DNA of 20,772 nucleotides from a virus: positions 1-20,772 of IMG/VR virus record IMGVR_UViG_3300020215_000843; one strand, given 5' to 3'. The translations under genes were made by a program, and so were the position numbers. Of the stretch, positions 9,734 to 20,772 are shown in pieces. Below the pieces are notes generated by a model. It saw only the letters and a program-made list of their open reading frames with translations, did no database searches and was not told where the DNA came from. Each line of letters opens with the position of its first letter. Positions within the stretch are counted from its first letter, which is position 1.

Positions 9734-12700
9734 TTATTCCTCAAAATTATCAATGCGCACTAAAGCGGCCGCCAGCTGTTCCTGTAATTGTTGCACTGCA
9801 CGAACAAGCACGGGAGTCAATCTGCCGTAGTCAATGCCCCAAGGGTTCCGCAAGTCACCGTTCGAAACCAAATCATCGCTACCTACTGACACAACTTCAG
9901 GCAAAACTTCATATAGCTCCTGCGCGTAAAACCCCTTATTGCGCACTCCCGGATTAGAAATCCATTCAAACTCACGAGGCTGCATAGCTGCAATAATGGC
10001 CAAACCATCAAACTCTGTAGGATTCTGTTTCAATCGCGCATCAGATGAGCCAGTAAATGTTGTTGTCGTGTTGCTTGCGGCCTCTATGCGACCAATTGTA
10101 GTTCCTGCCGAATTCAAACAGGTGTAGAAATATCCACCTGTGCAGTCAGTATCGACAGTAAATTGAGCATCGTATACACGATCCGTACTAGACGCAGTTG
10201 CAGTGCTATTCTTCGTAGCCACAACACCGGAGCCGGACAAAGGATTAGGCCCAAATGTCCAATTACCTGCTAACCCAATAGAACCCATCAAGGTGCCGGT
10301 AGCTGTACCTTGCCGAAAACTGAAGTTATTACTACCACTGTCAAATCCTTGTGCCCAACGATTAGTCGCACCTTCACTAAAGGTAATGTATCCTGCTTGG
10401 CCAGAATCTGGCTTAATATTGAGCATTCCTGCTGTGGCGTTCGGAACACCTGATAGAACAGTAGGCAGAGTGCCAGTAATGTTAGTGCTGTTGATAGTTA
10501 GACGTGGTCCGCCACCCGCTGCAACATTCAAGGTGCCCGCTCCGCTGCTGTACAAACCGGTGCTAGCATCATTCGTGAAACCATAACCTACAGCACTTGC
10601 GGTACCTGCAATGGATTCAATGCGAGACGTTGTTATAATTTTGGAATTCGGTTCATCAATGGTCAGCCGAATATTGCCTCCAGCAGAGAAACGTAACACT
10701 GTCGCGGCAGAGATGTACATTCCGGTACTTGTGTCGTTAGTGAAGGAATGCGCAGGAGCTGTGTTTGTTCCATCTGCTGTGCGTACTGGTACCGAATACA
10801 TTGCTTCAGTTGCATTCAGTGTCATGCGTGCTGTGTTTGCCGTCGAAAATCCCAGTGTGCTCGAGCCGGCATGATACATCCCAGTATCGAGATCCGAGGT
10901 GAAGGAATAGGAAGGGTCACCAGCTGATCCAGAAATATTGCTATGCGCAACGGTAGTAGAGAGCGCTGTGCTGGTCACAGACATGCGATCTGTCCCGCCC
11001 GCAGCCAGACTCACCGTGCCCGCTGCACTACGGTGTATGCCTTCTGTCGGAGTTGTCCCTGTGGTGTTGAAATTCCAAGAGCCATTGACTCCGTGCACAC
11101 TAGTGCCACCAGCTGCTCCAACCGCAAGTACGCCTGCCGCAGAAAGTGTAAGGGACTCAGCTGTACCCGGCTGCCAACTGAATCCTGTCGACGCATCACC
11201 CACAAATTCTGCAGTGCTGCCAGTATACTGCATCGTCAATTTCTTAGTGTTAGTTGCATCTCCGTGCAGAACATAACTTCCCGGGCCAACATGCACACTT
11301 CTCCATCTTAAGGCTGTGGTGCCCAGATCAATTGTGTTGTCGGTGGAAGGATTGACCGGCAAGGAACTAGAAATTGCAGACGTGCTGATGGAAAGTCTAT
11401 TAACCCCTGCAGTTGCAAAATCCAAGGTTGTTGCGCCAGAACTATAAATACCTGTGCTTGTGTCACCAGCAAATGTGTAGCTAGGAGCGCCCGCACTACC
11501 TGCAGCATTGTAGTACGGCAAGGTAGGATTGATTGAAGTTGTGTTGATATTAAGCCGGTTCACTCCAGCTGTTGCGAAATCTAAGTTCGAAACGCCTGAG
11601 CTGTAAATACCGAGACTTGTATCTCCGGTAAAACTGTAGCTAGGAGCACCAACCGTGCCTGCAGGTGAGATATGCGGCAGGGTTGAAGTGAACGCCGAAG
11701 TTGAAATGGTTGCGCGATTCACGCCACTCGTCGCAAACTTTATATTTGTAGCTGCATCGGAATACATCCCAGTACTGGTGTCTGCGAGAAAGCTATAAGA
11801 TGGAGCTGCAGCAGTTCCGCCAGAAGGGGCCAGAACAGAGACCCATGTTGGGGCTGCCGCACCATTTGCCTGAAGATACTGATTAGCAGTTCCGCTATCT
11901 AACTTGGTTGCAGTTCCCCCTGCCCCGCCGTAGATCATGTCTCCCGCAGAGTCCATCGGGTTGACGAGTGGGGAGACCCAGCTCATTGCACCTGCAGTTG
12001 TTGAGGAAAGGACTTGACCGTTGGATGCAGGTCCTGCAGCGGGCAGAGTATAATCCAAGCTGGCAGTTGTAGTCGCGTCGGCTTTCAGGCCTGTGTAATT
12101 AGATCCGTCCGAATCAGTGAAACGCACAATGCCGGAGTTGCTTGTAGTTGTAGTTCCGGACAGTACCCCGTTCACGACAGTCTTGTTGGAAAGAGATTCA
12201 CTTCCTGCAAGTGTCGACAGAGTTCCAGAACTAGGTAGGGTAACGTTCGTGCTACCGGTTGTTGTCAGAGTCAGATCGTGCGATGCAGCCTTCGTCAAGT
12301 TACCTGCTAGGGTTAGCGTCCTGCTGCCATCTTCTACGTCGACCGTGAGTACGCGACCAGGTGCAGTCAGTGTGGAAGTCGATTGAATTGCCAAGTTGAA
12401 TGCACTGTCAGAATCATCGAGAGAAAAAGTAGTTGCCCCGCCGATAGCCGGAGCGTTTAAAGTTGCACCATTCAGGGTTTTACTTGTTAGTGTCTCTATC
12501 CCGGCAAGAGTTGAGAGTGTGCCGGTAGTTGGCAGGGTTACGTTTGTTACGCCCGTGGTAGTCAGGGTTGTTGCATGTGTGCCAGCCTTGGTTAAGTCTC
12601 CAGCCAGATTTAAATTTCCGCCAAGGGTAAGTGTTCTATTTCCGTCCTCAGCATCGAGAGTAATAGTGCGCCCTGCAGTCAGAGTAGAAGTCGACTGAAG

Positions 12701-12970
12701 AGTCAGGTTGAATGCGCTATCTGTGTCGTCCAAGGAAAACGTCGTGGCGCCTCCAATTGCAGGGGCATTTATTGTAGGAGCAATGAGAGTTTTTCCAGAA
12801 ATATTCTGAGGCTGACTACTCAAAATTACTTCTTGTGTAGTTCCTGCCATATTCGGAATTTGAATAACTGAATCCCCAGTAGTCTGGGAGTTAGGGAGGA
12901 TAGTAACTTTACGTGAATTGCTACGAAATATGAGACGCTCGAGCTCTTCCCACAAACCAAAAATCTTCAT
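9734..12970 (-). CDS. Tail fibre/spike with C-terminal S74 intramolecular chaperone, 1078 aa
   Basis: The receptor-contact candidate. The N-terminus (residues 1 to 55, LWEELERLIFRSNSRKV, then IQIPNMAGTTQEVILSSQ) probably attaches to the virion. Residues of about 59 to 264 are two copies of a unit of about 103 residues. Residues of about 380 to 835 carry six copies of a Gly/Ser/Thr-rich DTSTGxYSSGxxxLxFATxGxxRLxI unit. Residues of about 972 to 1078 are a peptidase S74 chaperone: SSDARLKQNPTEFDGLAIIA, then FEWISN, GFYAQELYEVLPEVV and a terminal coiled coil (LVRAVQQLQEQLAAALVRID). In this family the chaperone trimerises the fibre and cuts itself off just before the Ser of SDxRxK (here Ser976, with Lys981). 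The start at ATG 12968-12970 has GGAGGAG six bases upstream. Its place between capsid and neck genes is unusual. Confidence 0.9.
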   Translation of the reverse strand: MKIFGLWEELERLIFRSNSRKVTILPNSQTTGDSVIQIPNMAGTTQEVILSSQPQNISGKTLIAPTINAPAIGGATTFSLDDTDSAFNLTLQSTSTLTAGRTITLDAEDGNRTLTLGGNLNLAGDLTKAGTHATTLTTTGVTNVTLPTTGTLSTLAGIETLTSKTLNGATLNAPAIGGATTFSLDDSDSAFNLAIQSTSTLTAPGRVLTVDVEDGSRTLTLAGNLTKAASHDLTLTTTGSTNVTLPSSGTLSTLAGSESLSNKTVVNGVLSGTTTTSNSGIVRFTDSDGSNYTGLKADATTTASLDYTLPAAGPASNGQVLSSTTAGAMSWVSPLVNPMDSAGDMIYGGAGGTATKLDSGTANQYLQANGAAAPTWVSVLAPSGGTAAAPSYSFLADTSTGMYSDAATNIKFATSGVNRATISTSAFTSTLPHISPAGTVGAPSYSFTGDTSLGIYSSGVSNLDFATAGVNRLNINTTSINPTLPYYNAAGSAGAPSYTFAGDTSTGIYSSGATTLDFATAGVNRLSISTSAISSSLPVNPSTDNTIDLGTTALRWRSVHVGPGSYVLHGDATNTKKLTMQYTGSTAEFVGDASTGFSWQPGTAESLTLSAAGVLAVGAAGGTSVHGVNGSWNFNTTGTTPTEGIHRSAAGTVSLAAGGTDRMSVTSTALSTTVAHSNISGSAGDPSYSFTSDLDTGMYHAGSSTLGFSTANTARMTLNATEAMYSVPVRTADGTNTAPAHSFTNDTSTGMYISAATVLRFSAGGNIRLTIDEPNSKIITTSRIESIAGTASAVGYGFTNDASTGLYSSGAGTLNVAAGGGPRLTINSTNITGTLPTVLSGVPNATAGMLNIKPDSGQAGYITFSEGATNRWAQGFDSGSNNFSFRQGTATGTLMGSIGLAGNWTFGPNPLSGSGVVATKNSTATASSTDRVYDAQFTVDTDCTGGYFYTCLNSAGTTIGRIEAASNTTTTFTGSSDARLKQNPTEFDGLAIIAAMQPREFEWISNPGVRNKGFYAQELYEVLPEVVSVGSDDLVSNGDLRNPWGIDYGRLTPVLVRAVQQLQEQLAAALVRIDNFEE
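9737..10057 (-). other. Peptidase S74 self-cleaving chaperone domain of the fibre
   Basis: The last 107 or so residues of the fibre contain S-D-A-R-L-K (residues 976 to 981), the Ser/Lys pair used for autocleavage in endosialidase-type chaperones, and the conserved GFYAQELYEVLPE helix. Cleavage before Ser976 would release about 103 residues. Confidence 0.85.
9738..9742 (-). promoter_or_regulatory. Ribosome binding site GAGGA inside the fibre gene end
   Basis: GAGGA overlaps the final Glu-Glu codons of the fibre gene, eight bases upstream of ATG 9729. It favours the 70-residue form over a TTG-started 78-residue form of the XhlA-like protein. Confidence 0.6.
10466..11833 (-). repeat. Six copies of a beta-structured repeat in the fibre shaft
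   Basis: Cores begin near fibre residues 397, 450, 503, 693, 746 and 801: DTSTGMYSDAATNIKFATSG, DTSLGIYSSGVSNLDFATAG, DTSTGIYSSGATTLDFATAG, DLDTGMYHAGSSTLGFSTAN, DTSTGMYISAATVLRFSAGG, DASTGLYSSGAGTLNVAAGG. Most are preceded by an 'AGxxGxPSYSFxx' stretch and followed by R-x-x-I/L-x-x-S/T. The spacing is 53 residues in both triplets (397/450/503 and 693/746/801, within one or two). A different segment at residues 540 to 690 separates the triplets. Confidence 0.8.
12179..12796 (-). repeat. Two tandem copies of a unit of about 103 residues in the fibre N-terminal region
   Basis: Fibre residues 59 to 162 and 163 to 264 align nearly end to end. They share NAPAIGGATTFSLDD-[TS]-DSAFNL, QSTSTLTA, D-x-EDG-[NS]-RTLTL, the GNL and LTKA stretches, LTTTG-[VS]-TNVTLP and GTLSTLAG. 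The first copy carries a few extra residues around LNLAGDL. The repeat is also visible at DNA level, suggesting a fairly recent duplication. Confidence 0.8.
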
Positions 12971-13043: not shown

Positions 13044-13478
13044 TTATTCGTTTGGAAGGAGATACCGGACATAGAAGCGAATCTTTCCTGCAGTAGCTGC
13101 GGCAGTCGCAATTGCAATGTTCAGTTCCGAGGCTGCTGAAATAAGAATCCCAGCAGCAGATCCGGCCAGAGCCCGCGACTGGATTCCCGCATCGCCGGTG
13201 AAGTCGATCGCGCCTGTGAGTGCTGTGCTGCCCGCCTTCAGCGTAATAGACGTTGCACCTGTAACTGCTGTCAGCTCCTGGGAGATGACACCGATAACCA
13301 TGGCATTTGCTGGGAGGAGCCGCCCAAACGAAATAGTAGAGATAGCTCCACCATCTTGCGAGAAGTCCCACACAACCGACTCACAACGAGTACCGCCAGC
13401 ATTCAGCACTCCTTCATCGTGTGCAGAAGGAAACCCTGCGCCGAATCGACCTGCTTTTAATTTACGTCGTGCTTGCAT
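13044..13478 (-). CDS. Beta-rich virion protein candidate (decoration / head fibre-like), 144 aa
   Basis: ATG at 13476-13478 has GGAG nine bases upstream. Its first 17 bases overlap the end of the HNH gene. The N-terminus is basic (MQARRKLKAGRFGAGF). The rest reads as alternating strands and turns: VVWDFSQDGGAISTISFGRL, ANAMVIGVISQELTAVTGAT, ITLKAGSTAL, AIDFTGDAGIQ, ELNIAIATAAATAGKIRFYV. This looks like a small beta-sandwich. Without the HNH insertion it would follow the capsid gene directly, a usual place for head decoration or head-completion proteins. No family is firmly recognised, and a fibre-associated minor protein is another possibility. Confidence 0.7.
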   Translation of the reverse strand: MQARRKLKAGRFGAGFPSAHDEGVLNAGGTRCESVVWDFSQDGGAISTISFGRLLPANAMVIGVISQELTAVTGATSITLKAGSTALTGAIDFTGDAGIQSRALAGSAAGILISAASELNIAIATAAATAGKIRFYVRYLLPNE

Positions 13479-13905
13479 AAATTTTCTCCATTTGAAATCT
13501 AATTAATCTCGCCATCCAGTCTTCGAATTCAGCTAGGCTCTTCGCGGCTTTCGCTCGGTTGCAGGGGGCACAGCAGGGCACACAGTTTGAAGGTATGTAA
13601 CCAATCGAGCTGTCAACACGATCAATTCCATTAATTTTATGGACTGATTCACCCTCACTTGGCTTACTCCCACAATAGGTACACGGTGAGTTTATCAGAG
13701 ACCAAACCTCATGATGTGACAGCTCAAATGCGAGCCCCTTTAGTCGCATACGTTTTTTGTGATCTCTAACTGCTTCTATTGCAATGCGCGGTAGACAGTA
13801 CCTCAAGCGGGAAGACGTGGGAGAGGAAGAAAAACTGCCCGGCATACTCGCCGAGACAGATTCCTTCCCTACACCTGCAACTCCGCATGGAGTCTTGACT
13901 GCCAC
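13462..13905 (-). CDS. Free-standing HNH endonuclease (homing-type), up to 147 aa
   Basis: The C-terminal half has a complete phage HNH pattern. Zinc-type pairs are C75-x2-C78 (CTYCGS) and C112-x2-C115 (CCAPCN). The active-site stretch NGIDRVDSSIGY is at residues 92 to 103, with N107, N116 and K119 following, then a terminal helix EFEDWMARLIRF. A helix with RDHKKRMRLKGLAFELSHHE (residues 48 to 66) precedes it, as in this family. The GTG start at 13903-13905 lies 11 bases after the capsid stop and has no evident ribosome site. ATG at 13843-13845, which has a purine-rich GGAAGGA rather far upstream, is an alternative that would drop 20 poorly family-like residues. Such enzymes cut a cognate site and spread by repair; the target is probably the capsid region of relatives, which is an inference. 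Confidence 0.85.
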   Translation of the reverse strand: MAVKTPCGVAGVGKESVSASMPGSFSSSPTSSRLRYCLPRIAIEAVRDHKKRMRLKGLAFELSHHEVWSLINSPCTYCGSKPSEGESVHKINGIDRVDSSIGYIPSNCVPCCAPCNRAKAAKSLAEFEDWMARLIRFQMEKIYASTT

Positions 13906-16675: not shown

Positions 16676-18667
16676 CTACATGGCGACGGGTGCAGCGCCG
16701 GCGAGATCCGGTAATGCAGGCTGTGCAGGTAACTCCGAAGCAGCCTCCGGAGGTGCAGCACCGCCAGCTACACCTTCTGCTGCAAGCAATGCCTGCCGCT
16801 CCACCACATGCTTCCTGATCAACACCTTGGATTCAATAGGCAAGTATTTGAAATCGCTAGTCATTAAATACATGGAGCAGTAGGCTAGCATGTTCTTGTG
16901 GTCCTGTAATTTCTCTGGTGCGATGTATCTGTTTGTCGCAATCATTTCGTCGAACACTTCTCGCTGCCTGTCGTAGGCCAGGTCCAACAAGTCGTATGCA
17001 CTTGAGAGCTCATTGAGTTTGAGCATTTTAAGAATTTGTCGAGGCTCGATACCCGCTTTCTCAAACAGTGGCATCATGCTCAGCATCTCGTCTCGGCGAG
17101 CTGTAGGATCGAGAGACAGACTGGCACCGTATTCAACATATAAGTCGTACCCGCCAGCAATATCTGCGCCCATGATGTCCATGGATTCAAACGCCTTCTC
17201 CTTGCCCAGCGTGCGAATAGTGCGCGCAACTTCCCAGTTCTTCTGGACAATCATAAGAAAACGTTCGTAAACCTGCTTCACTGCGCGACGGTATTTATTG
17301 AACAACCTGTAGCGAATCATGTTGCCCTGGCTCACTGCATTTTGCATGAGAAATCCAGACTGTTCTCTGCTCTGCTGTCCAAACATCGATTCATTCACAC
17401 CGGCCATATCGTCCACACCTGCCTTGTACCGATTCATGAGTAGAGGCATTGCTTCCGGCAGCGGCATCGGCTGCATATAATGGAGCGGCTGGGAGCCGGT
17501 GATTTTTATTACGTCCCACGGAGAATTTGTCACAGAGTCAGCGGCGACATCTGCAGTTTCTGGCAAGATAAGCCGAGGGATTCCATGCGCCTGTGCACCG
17601 TCCAGTGTCATGGAGTCGATGCGATTCAACTTGTCCTGAATTACAGATGCGTACTCGACAAAGCTCTTACCATAGAGGGTGTCAGGCACATCTATGTCTG
17701 TCAGCACATGGTAGGGCAACACGGCAACAGGTATCTTTTTCGGAGATTTAGACGTAGAACGGGGCGGAACATACCGCTCGGGATTTAAGCAGTCGTCCAT
17801 GCCCAGAATCTGGCCGTCGCGCGTACAAATATAGAATCGTCCCTGCATACCGTTCGAAGGTAAGCCCTTCTCCCAGTATTCGTACAACTCCACAACATCC
17901 CATTTGCGCTTCTGAAATGAAGAATTGATTGTTCCGTGGTCCGCCGCATCGCCGTAGCTACTTGGAAGTTCCCCCGCTTGTATGCGATTTGCTCGAAGCA
18001 ATTGCGCCTGCTCCGGCCACCTGAACACCGCTTCGTCGTAGGGGACAAGAATGCGCTCGAATGCGTAATTCATCGTTTGTTCGTTTTCGGCGTCGGGATC
18101 CGGGAAGAAATTCCAGATATTGATATCGTTAAATTTGAAGTCACCATCCAGCACGACGTCGCCAGTTTCCTCGTTTACATCCAGCAACTCGCCAGCATGC
18201 GGGTCCCAGTATGTCTTGGCAACCGCGTATCCATACAGCAGTACCTTAGATGTCCACTGATCAAACTTCTCTTGAAAGTCGTACTCCACTCTGGCAAATC
18301 TGAGCAGCCTATCCGCCGCATCTGCAGCTCTGCGATCCGACATGTCGTTACTCACTGCGCATGGAATAACTGATGGTGGATTGGCGCTCAACTGTGCGTG
18401 CACATATCTCCAATTTTTGAACACATAGTTAATTTCGACATTCGCATCAGAACTTGCAGCTTCAGGCGAGACATCTTCCCCGTCTCCCAGAATCATGGAC
18501 TGCTGTGACCTTGCCGGCCCCAAGTCGCCATATAGATCGGGAAACACTGTGCGCTCATTCGCTCGCCAAGTGGCTTCGTATTTTCTGCGCCCTTCCCGTG
18601 CCTCCTGCAACCTGCGTTTCAACTGTGCTTCTGCTTCTTCTTGACTCCATACGACAATCTTAGGCAT
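16676..18667 (-). CDS. Portal protein, 663 aa
   Basis: The dodecameric head vertex through which DNA enters and leaves. Length and sequence pattern fit podovirus-type portals. There is a charged helical start (EEAEAQLKRRLQEAREGRRK), WRANERTVFPDLYG, the early segment INYVFKNWRYVHAQLSANPP, DFQEKFDQWTSKVLLYGYAV with KTYWDPHAGE, a FNDINIWNFFPDP strand pair, and PKKIPVAVLPYHVLTDIDVP. A stem/crown-like helical region follows (GVNESMFGQQSREQSGFLMQ, then RRAVKQVYERFLMIVQKNWE). The C-terminal 35 or so residues are a disordered Ala/Pro tail. ATG at 18665-18667 starts one base after the upstream stop codon; GGGGGG lies eight bases before it. It is flanked by terminase on one side and scaffold and capsid on the other, which supports the call. 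Confidence 0.85.
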   Translation of the reverse strand: MPKIVVWSQEEAEAQLKRRLQEAREGRRKYEATWRANERTVFPDLYGDLGPARSQQSMILGDGEDVSPEAASSDANVEINYVFKNWRYVHAQLSANPPSVIPCAVSNDMSDRRAADAADRLLRFARVEYDFQEKFDQWTSKVLLYGYAVAKTYWDPHAGELLDVNEETGDVVLDGDFKFNDINIWNFFPDPDAENEQTMNYAFERILVPYDEAVFRWPEQAQLLRANRIQAGELPSSYGDAADHGTINSSFQKRKWDVVELYEYWEKGLPSNGMQGRFYICTRDGQILGMDDCLNPERYVPPRSTSKSPKKIPVAVLPYHVLTDIDVPDTLYGKSFVEYASVIQDKLNRIDSMTLDGAQAHGIPRLILPETADVAADSVTNSPWDVIKITGSQPLHYMQPMPLPEAMPLLMNRYKAGVDDMAGVNESMFGQQSREQSGFLMQNAVSQGNMIRYRLFNKYRRAVKQVYERFLMIVQKNWEVARTIRTLGKEKAFESMDIMGADIAGGYDLYVEYGASLSLDPTARRDEMLSMMPLFEKAGIEPRQILKMLKLNELSSAYDLLDLAYDRQREVFDEMIATNRYIAPEKLQDHKNMLAYCSMYLMTSDFKYLPIESKVLIRKHVVERQALLAAEGVAGGAAPPEAASELPAQPALPDLAGAAPVAM

Positions 18668-18668
18668 G

Positions 18669-18998
18669 TTATTTGCCCCCCTGTTTAGTCAACAGCTTGG
18701 CACCATCAAGAAGAGGGGCAAGCTCAGCATCATCTCGGGCATATTTGAGCATCAGTGCCAGCAACGCTTCCCATACGATCGCATATTCCGGAAATTTCGA
18801 GCCGCAGTGCTGCAACTTCAGAAACATTCTGCGAAGGTATTGCCACTGGTAACGAGTCACGTTGCGTCCACCAGACTCCACATCTGCACAGTACTCAAGA
18901 ATTTTGTCGATCAGCTGCGCGCGACTGGTTTCACATTGCCGTCTATCAGGCATCTTCGGAGTAGCAATCTTGAGCTGCAATCCAATAGAAACAGACAT
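18669..18998 (-). CDS. Small protein of unknown function, 109 aa, next to portal
   Basis: No family is recognised. The protein is mainly helical and mixed in charge: MPDRRQCETSRAQLIDKILE, then RYQWQYLRRMFLKLQHCGSK and ALLALMLKYARDDAELAPLL. ATG at 18996-18998 has a near-perfect GGAGG (19004-19008) five bases upstream, embedded in the last codons of the 60-residue membrane protein gene. It ends one base before the portal start, so the three genes look translationally coupled. Small genes between terminase and portal sometimes encode packaging factors or portal-associated proteins, but nothing in this sequence shows which. Confidence 0.75.
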   Translation of the reverse strand: MSVSIGLQLKIATPKMPDRRQCETSRAQLIDKILEYCADVESGGRNVTRYQWQYLRRMFLKLQHCGSKFPEYAIVWEALLALMLKYARDDAELAPLLDGAKLLTKQGGK

Positions 18999-19000
18999 AA

Positions 19001-19183
19001 CTACCTCCGCACACGAGTGGAATTCAGCGACAAGGCTGCAACGTTGCGCAGGACCTGGACCAGCAATTTATCCTTCCGCTTAATCTCTGCTCGAATCCCA
19101 AGTAGCAACAAGCCGAGAGCCGGCAACAAAAATAGCTGCGCATAGATAATCCACATCCAAACAATTAGTTCGCGCTCTTCCAT
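19001..19183 (-). CDS. Small single-span membrane protein, 60 aa
   Basis: Residues of about 6 to 30 (LIVWMWIIYAQLFLLPALGL and on to LLLGI) form one long hydrophobic segment. A strongly basic stretch follows (RAEIKRKDK), then an amphipathic tail. By the positive-inside rule the C-terminus should be cytoplasmic. ATG at 19181-19183 is chosen because GGGGGAG lies seven bases upstream; a TTG five codons earlier is less likely. It overlaps the last 19 bases of the terminase gene. It could be a holin-like or superinfection-related membrane protein, but neither is supported by a motif. Confidence 0.7.
   Translation of the reverse strand: MEERELIVWMWIIYAQLFLLPALGLLLLGIRAEIKRKDKLLVQVLRNVAALSLNSTRVRR
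19004..19008 (-). promoter_or_regulatory. Ribosome binding site GGAGG inside the membrane protein gene
   Basis: GGAGG lies just before the TAG stop (19001-19003) of the 60-residue gene and five bases upstream of ATG 18998. It fixes the start of the 109-residue gene. Confidence 0.7.
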
Positions 19184-20772
19184 TTTTTTCTCCCCCAACC
19201 GTACACATTGCGCACAACCCTGCCGCCGCTACTCTTCTCTATTTTTTTGGCAGCTTGCTCCCTCTCCTTGCGCTCTGCATTTTTCTTGCGCAACTCGAGA
19301 TACCAAGGCAAAACACGCTGCGACTCGTCGTACGGTGGCATCAGGTCCACAAAATATTGAGATGCATCTAACGTGTGGTACTTGCTGCTGTTAATAATCC
19401 TGTCAGAAGTCTCGGAAAATTGACAGGACTGAATCTCCTCAACAAACGTTTCACACCACGATGCGATCTTTATCTTGCCCATAGAGATGGCAAGTTGCAG
19501 ATTTTTTATCAGCTCGCCTTTGCGATTGCTCTTGTCGTACGGGTACATGTAAGCCTGCTTGTGTTTCGCAGCCTGCCCGATAAACCAGGACTCGTGCGGA
19601 TCCGAGATACGGCGTACAATGTTCAGGTGTCTGATGCGGGTATTCACTTCCGCAAGCAAGTCGTCAACATTCAGCTTGTTTTCAATGTATGCGTCGTTGA
19701 TCAGATACCACGTGCCGTCAGTCGGATCTTCTGCCCACAACGTGAAGCCACACTTGCTTTTCAATGCCGGGTCAACCGACACTATGTGCCTCCAACTTGC
19801 ACCGTAGCCAGGGATCTCCTTGACCACAGAAGAAGCATAGTCAAACTGATAGACAGCCGAATCGCCGACAAACCAGTCCCCATAGAGAACTGTGTTGCGA
19901 TACGAGTCAGAATACCCCTCAAGCTTTTTGATTTCCTCGTGCTTGCGTTCTGCGTAAAGTGGATTGTCTAATTTTGTCAGTCTGTAACGCTTACCAATCG
20001 GAAACTCGAGTGCATCGACAACCTTGCGGATGGCTTCATTACGAATCTTGGGCGTGAAGGTCACAATAAAATAGCCGCGTCGAGATGCAACACGCTGCTG
20101 CAGCTCCTCAAGAATTTTGATATCTCGCGGCATTTCGTCTAGCCACACATAATGGGCAACGTACCCTTGCATGTGCTGCCGATTCTTGTCAGATGAATCA
20201 TTGTGGGACAAGAAAACAATCTTGTGACCATGCTTGCGGTGTTCCACAAAATTAAGAACGCCACCCACACGAGCTTCCCGCCACTCAGCCATGTCGAGGA
20301 AGGGTTTCAGCTTCTTAGTCCACAACTCAATTTCCATCTGCTTGCGGTCCTGACCTGCAATCAGAATAAGAAGAGGCTCGTCTCCCCACTCCTTAGGACG
20401 CACCCATGTTGGATGTGTATCAGTTACGATCCAAGCAATTTCCCTTGCAGCAACAGACGACTTGCCGGAGTTATGTGTGACCAGACCATTAGCTAAAAGA
20501 TACAGATTACTAGGACTATCTACGTGTATGTCGTAAGTCTCTGCCTCGCGCGGACTACTGCCCCAACGCATTCCAATATATTTAGGATTTGTCCTGCGAC
20601 CACCAATCTGCGAGTACGTGTCTTTCCATTTTTTCTGGGGACTCACTAAATAATCATTCAGCTCTTCCATAATCTCAGCAACAAACCGCGCATTACGTGT
20701 ATATGCCGAATATACCGGACCGTTCTTATACTTATCTCTATTATCTGTGGTGACATTCAGCGGAACTTGCCA
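19165..20772 (-). CDS. terL: Terminase large subunit with an intein in the ATPase P-loop (5' end outside window)
   Basis: The DNA-packaging motor ATPase and nuclease. The frame is open from the window edge through 20670 to the stop, so the ATG at 20668-20670 is internal. After the intein, 434 residues of the mature protein remain. Counting from the first one, SGKSS (1 to 5) is the second half of Walker A, YVWLDE (D111, E112) is Walker B, and TFTP (137 to 140) is the coupling motif. The RNase H-like nuclease carries acidic residues in SVDPA (D233), ISDPHES (D290) and HTLDASQYF (D368). The basic C-terminus (GRKKWK) may contact portal or DNA. The N-terminal part, including the first half of Walker A, lies beyond base 20772. 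Without protein splicing the P-loop is broken and the motor should be inactive. Confidence 0.92.
   Translation of the reverse strand, partial: WQVPLNVTTDNRDKYKNGPVYSAYTRNARFVAEIMEELNDYLVSPQKKWKDTYSQIGGRRTNPKYIGMRWGSSPREAETYDIHVDSPSNLYLLANGLVTHNSGKSSVAAREIAWIVTDTHPTWVRPKEWGDEPLLILIAGQDRKQMEIELWTKKLKPFLDMAEWREARVGGVLNFVEHRKHGHKIVFLSHNDSSDKNRQHMQGYVAHYVWLDEMPRDIKILEELQQRVASRRGYFIVTFTPKIRNEAIRKVVDALEFPIGKRYRLTKLDNPLYAERKHEEIKKLEGYSDSYRNTVLYGDWFVGDSAVYQFDYASSVVKEIPGYGASWRHIVSVDPALKSKCGFTLWAEDPTDGTWYLINDAYIENKLNVDDLLAEVNTRIRHLNIVRRISDPHESWFIGQAAKHKQAYMYPYDKSNRKGELIKNLQLAISMGKIKIASWCETFVEEIQSCQFSETSDRIINSSKYHTLDASQYFVDLMPPYDESQRVLPWYLELRKKNAERKEREQAAKKIEKSSGGRVVRNVYGWGRKKWKSAN
20470..20772 (-). mobile_element. 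Intein, C-terminal part, inserted in the terminase Walker A motif
   Basis: The last 101 residues of an intein are visible; the rest is outside the window. Block F is seen as ETYDIHVDSPSNLYLLANG and block G as NGLVTHN, with the penultimate His (20473-20475) and terminal Asn (20470-20472) needed for branch resolution. The next residue is Ser (20467-20469), a permitted +1 nucleophile and also the Ser of SGKSS. Splicing would therefore rebuild a G-x4-GKS type loop. The visible part shows no LAGLIDADG or HNH motif, so whether a homing endonuclease is present cannot be told here. Inteins commonly insert at nucleotide-binding loops because the site is conserved. Confidence 0.9.

Follow-up and report, generated by a model that had tools for sequence, protein, structure and literature searches.

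The packaging genes of the window

The window analysed here is the whole IMG/VR record, i.e., 20,772 bases with nothing beyond position 20772. On its minus strand, a frame of 535 codons is open, with no stop, from 20772 to the stop that ends at 19165; this frame encodes a large terminase (TerL) with an intein entering its Walker A loop. The features of the packaging block are as follows (minus strand throughout).

16676 to 18667, minus strand: portal protein, P22-type, in the same packaging gene block as the terminase (PF16510, E 1.3e-19; phrog_156, E 4.6e-30)
18669 to 18998, minus strand: ORF of 109 aa between terminase and portal, with no family match
19165 to 20469, minus strand: C-extein of TerL, comprising the ATPase core and the RNase H-like nuclease (PF03237, phrog_2, likeness to relative L002)
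20455 to 20469, minus strand: start of the C-extein, SGKSS, the second half of the Walker A loop (L002 reads FVIAGNQ.SGKSS)
20470 to 20772, minus strand: C-terminal 101 residues of the intein, running off the record (TIGR01443; alignment to relative L003)

An initial annotation, made from the letters alone, had named the interrupted protein as the phage packaging ATPase, and profile searches bear this out; the match to PF03237 (Terminase_6N) begins at residue 102 (E 1.7e-11; 44.6 bits, above the cut-off of 22) and phrog_2 matches the frame with an E of 2.4e-15, while residues 1 to 101 are non-terminase. The window protein retains Walker B (VWLDE) and the motif TFTPK and has the composition of a large terminase, with an ATPase domain that carries Walker A and B and an RNase H-like nuclease; PF17289 scored below its cut-off (13.6 against 22.6). 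No close terminase was found among named phages, where the best match had approximately 29% identity over partial length, and a search of solved structures by sequence, with the window protein alone, matched none. With regard to neighbouring genes, L002 has an ORF of 117 aa at the position equivalent to that of the 109-aa ORF. An HNH or endonuclease VII-like ORF lies amid the structural genes of the window (13465-13905, minus strand; phrog_1035, E 4e-16), and L002 carries an HNH-like ORF, recognised by eye, at 119-637, shortly upstream of its terminase. The window also encodes a repetitive tail fibre of 1078 aa with a C-terminal Peptidase_S74 chaperone domain (9737-12970, minus strand).

An intein end inside the Walker A loop

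The profile TIGR01443 (intein_Cterm) matches residues 78-102 of the frame (E 6e-6; 26.3 bits, above the cut-off of 15.6) and the intein-alignment profile A7 matches the visible intein part with an E of 1.3e-44. This part consists of the tail of a LAGLIDADG endonuclease domain, followed by splicing blocks F and G (TYDIHVDSP...YLLANGLVTHN), which end in a penultimate His and a last Asn and are followed by a +1 Ser. The junction, THN↓SGKSS (the arrow marks the intein boundary here and below), falls at 20470/20469, with the Asn codon at 20472-20470 and the +1 Ser codon at 20469-20467, precisely where the initial annotation had placed it. That annotation had also equated the +1 residue with the P-loop Ser; the residue does belong to the Walker A loop, at its variable x position before GK, whereas the Mg-binding Ser of GK[S/T] is at +4. 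In intein-free relatives, the +1 position is taken by S, A or T.

Since the record ends inside the intein, relatives were used to reconstruct the remainder. The 101 residues of the window align to residues 236-336 of the 336-residue intein of L003 with 65% identity, and such identity across all 101 residues to a complete intein excludes a chance resemblance. By this alignment, some 235 residues of the intein are missing from the window, together with an N-extein of roughly 50-80 residues. Only relatives thus show the N-extein and the first two thirds of the intein, and the LAGLIDADG motifs, too, are located off the record. When the end of the contig was searched for as an exact 28-base pattern, no other viral contig matched.

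Intein-free and intein-bearing relatives

The sister terminase L002, which is 67% identical to that of the window, is intein-free and reads uninterrupted through the site (AGNQSGKSS; FRFVIAGNQSGKSSLAAREIAW). An alignment to intein-free terminases had been proposed as a check on the initial annotation; in such an alignment L002, L026, L031 and others are continuous across the site, so that the window carries an in-frame insertion that homologous alleles lack. By contrast, the L003 terminase contains a complete intein at the identical point and in a single frame, with the junctions GNQ↓CLIKGTQVLTPKG...TYDIHVDSPTNLYLLANGLITHN↓SGKSQ. The claim that the intein splits the Walker A loop is supported. 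The L003 intein starts with Cys1 (CLIKGT...), has a TxxH block B (TEDH), ends in HN↓S and shows the LAGLIDADG-type motifs ALLGDGC and AGLLDTDG. PF14528 exceeded its cut-off of 22.5 in L004 (30.0) and fell below it in L003 (16.5). Complete one-frame inteins with Cys1 and HN↓S at the same junction were found in L003, L006, L028, L036/L037 and L039; Cys1 and block B, which are off the record for the window, are thus present in the same frame in its relatives.

Three further sequences are of separate interest. At L032:1866-2276, a 137-aa intein of the window kind occupies the same site without an endonuclease domain. At L034:3136-3543, the same terminase codon holds a mini-intein of 136 aa that is unrelated and starts with Ser (SIPGWSLV...YLTGN), pointing to an independent invasion of one site. 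Finally, L023:3001-3756, on a 316-kb contig, is a related endonuclease-bearing sequence that has neither a normal HN end nor an evident extein and may be a degenerate intein or a free-standing nuclease.

Structure models of L003 and L002 agree with these assignments. For the L003 intein, an AlphaFold model (pLDDT 93.9) superposes on PI-SceI, the yeast VMA1 intein, with Z 23.5 and rmsd 4.1 across 310-314 residues (Foldseek E 7e-17). The L002 terminase, modelled with pLDDT 84.5 and pTM 0.60, matches the whole large terminases of D6E (E 5.7e-21) and Sf6 (E 3.4e-14), and its model places the junction in the loop between the strand 51-56 and the helix 62-75, as expected of a P-loop.

Distribution and insertion registers

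Viral contigs were scanned both with the intein (20 loci) and with the terminase (16 loci), and, to avoid selection bias, the share of intein-bearing terminases was taken from the terminase-based scan only. There, 7 of the 16 loci (including one near-duplicate pair) carry the intein, i.e., about half of the sampled TerL family, the closest relative L002 included, is without it. On a terminase tree of 18 rows, intein presence requires 8 changes.

The insertions occupy two registers. Register I, x↓[S/C]GK[S/T], is that of the window and is found in L003, L006, L028, L036/L037, L039, L032 and, for the unrelated mini-intein, L034, as well as in the unrelated terminases L008, L010 and L004/L012 and in the AAA-type ATPase L011, for which AAA_21 scored below cut-off and the loop FGENG↓CGKST was read directly. 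Register II, GK↓[S/T], is found in L007, L009, L013 and L016-L020 and also in a kinase-like protein, L014/L015 (DNMK below cut-off). L007 (3001-4020) is a terminase of the window family whose related intein sits three residues further on (GNRAGK↓...↓TT); one P-loop has been invaded in two registers across the TerL family of the window. The contig of L010 carries a second intein relative, within an 889-aa frame (G011 C1:15914-16543).

In distant pairs, the inteins are more alike than the exteins. The inteins of the window and L003 are 65% identical and their terminases only 42-43%, and between the window and L004 the corresponding values are 48% for the inteins and 19-21% for the exteins; this excess is not seen in every pair, as the L028 intein (51%) is less similar to that of the window than is its extein (56%). 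On the intein tree, rows group by register with 2 changes (at most 1 in 500 shuffles was as low) and not strictly by host protein, with most branches weakly supported. Because intein presence flips between the closest terminases and the same lineage occurs in unrelated P-loop proteins, we infer that the intein is a mobile element. Whether the lineage is specialised on Walker A loops, and has moved among unrelated P-loop proteins and between two registers, we regard as evenly balanced; were it so, the P-loop codons of packaging motors would have been targets of repeated invasion, with L034 as a case in which an unrelated mini-intein took the same codon. Among bacterial genomes of 84,980 species, there were only two weak intein matches, which therefore gave no clue to a host or prophage.

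Proposed splicing and homing, and alternative explanations

Taken together, the window very probably holds the final third of a class 1 LAGLIDADG intein that is contiguous, resides in the TerL Walker A loop, between NQ and SGKS, splices itself out and spreads by homing. The established class 1 mechanism consists of acyl shifts carried out by Cys1 and the +1 Ser, cyclisation of the Asn and joining of the exteins. The terminase would accordingly be translated as a single precursor containing the intein, which would be excised through an N-S acyl shift at Cys1, transfer to the +1 Ser and cyclisation of the Asn; joining of GNQ to SGKS would restore the P-loop. The off-record part is presumably intact; the intein of the window should splice, and its endonuclease should cut. 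The proposed targets are intein-free terminase genes of co-infecting phages, cut at their conserved P-loop codons, and by cutting these alleles the element would spread by homing.

The initial annotation had stated that packaging depends on protein splicing, and this deduction is sound. The unspliced precursor, its P-loop broken by approximately 336 residues, should be unable to bind ATP normally, and in each contig that carries a gene of the TerL family of the window only one was found (the contigs may be incomplete; those with the intein reach 58 kb); packaging should thus need splicing, and most likely the motor can bind ATP only once the intein has been removed.

One further role, compatible with homing and additional to it, is phage competition, in which the endonuclease would disable co-infecting intein-free relatives by cutting their TerL gene. 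An intron-encoded homing endonuclease of phage PhiPA3 is reported to aid competition with another phage (PMC11620839), and the TerL inteins of BAKA and Bethlehem cleave partner alleles (PMC5050341). The target codons are conserved at the protein level between intein-free and intein-bearing alleles, but synonymous differences occur in the DNA surrounding the site; cleavage by this lineage is a prediction. We consider such a role rather doubtful.

A more far-reaching proposal of the initial annotation was that splicing acts as a timing or environmental switch, with TerL inactive until a signal (redox, temperature or metal) or a given time of infection, which would gate head filling. The insertion would indeed block ATP binding, endonuclease-free mini-inteins persist at the same site (L032, L034), and conditional splicing has been reported for other ATPase inteins, e.g., those of RadA and mycobacterial DnaB. 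This analysis found no positive evidence for a splicing switch, however, and the patchy spread across unrelated genes fits homing. The visible third of the intein contains no cysteine, though the off-record part may have some. Since the closest terminase, like half of its family, does without the intein, and since five tested mycobacteriophage TerL or TerL-like inteins splice readily (PMC5050341), we rate a switch as very unlikely.

The visible part might also be the C-terminal half (IntC) of a split intein whose N-terminal half (IntN) is encoded elsewhere. Natural split TerL inteins exist, e.g., AceL-TerL, with an IntN of 25 aa and an IntC of 104 aa (PMC11766414), and the contig stops before the upstream part. 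Every close relative in which the region is intact encodes the intein in one continuous frame, however, which makes a split arrangement barely credible; in addition, the open frame of the window already contains part of the endonuclease domain, tblastn gave only chance matches for an N-intein or N-extein elsewhere in the 20.8-kb window, and the +1 residue of AceL-TerL is Cys and that of the window Ser. Finally, a decayed or chance remnant, in which a dead gene or a chimeric contig carries an intein-like C-terminus, is scarcely tenable; while the feature does lie at the edge of the contig, where misassembly is most frequent, the frame is open, all C-terminal splicing residues and the terminase motifs are intact, and the whole visible part resembles an intact intein at the same codon.

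Comparison with known terminase inteins

Terminase inteins, those in the P-loop included, are a well documented class (PMC5050341), to which the window contributes a further lineage and a putatively new register of insertion; the findings reveal no new regulatory principle. The intein-bearing and intein-free sister alleles provide a clean system in which to ask whether homing endonucleases cut the packaging genes of rivals, and the same pair suits the question of whether splicing ever limits packaging.

The mycobacteriophage TerL inteins at sites a-f (Kelley et al. 2016, PMC5050341) likewise lie in the TerL ATPase domain and are patchily distributed, with sites a and b in the Walker A loop. 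Splicing and homing-endonuclease activity are demonstrated for some; of the TerL or TerL-like inteins examined there, five spliced readily when placed in a reporter, and partner alleles were cleaved by two (PMC5050341). They differ from the window intein in their phages and in position. TerL1-a is inserted between the Lys and the Thr/Ser (GK↓T), as in L007, and TerL1-b one residue away, whereas the insertion in the window is at x↓SGK, three residues before GK↓[ST]. The atypical split inteins AceL-TerL and GOS-TerL (PMC11766414) also come from phage large terminases in environmental DNA; they are split, with an IntC of 104-115 aa and a +1 Cys, whereas the lineage of the window is contiguous in its relatives, has an endonuclease and has a +1 Ser.

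Similarity to the L003 intein also identified P-loop inteins in Lactococcus phages 949/AM4, Klebsiella phage YC1, Methanosarcina virus MetMV and Shewanella phage FishSpeaker; these are 22-24% identical, are inserted at GK↓T and mostly start with Ala or Leu. Such distant inteins of named phages (L042, L043, L044, L046, L047 and L048) are at GK↓T, and because several start with Ala or Leu rather than Cys, non-class-1 splicing is suggested for them. The register x↓SGK was absent from the seven inspected matches in named records, six of which are at GK↓T and one, crAss-like, apparently after GK; nor was it found in the part of the intein literature that the analysis covered, and we regard it as a candidate new register.

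By the L003 model, the intein is built like PI-SceI, from a Hint splicing domain into which a LAGLIDADG endonuclease is inserted; it differs in sequence (14-20% identity), in its host protein, which for PI-SceI is a vacuolar ATPase, and in the +1 residue, which is Cys in PI-SceI and Ser in the window.
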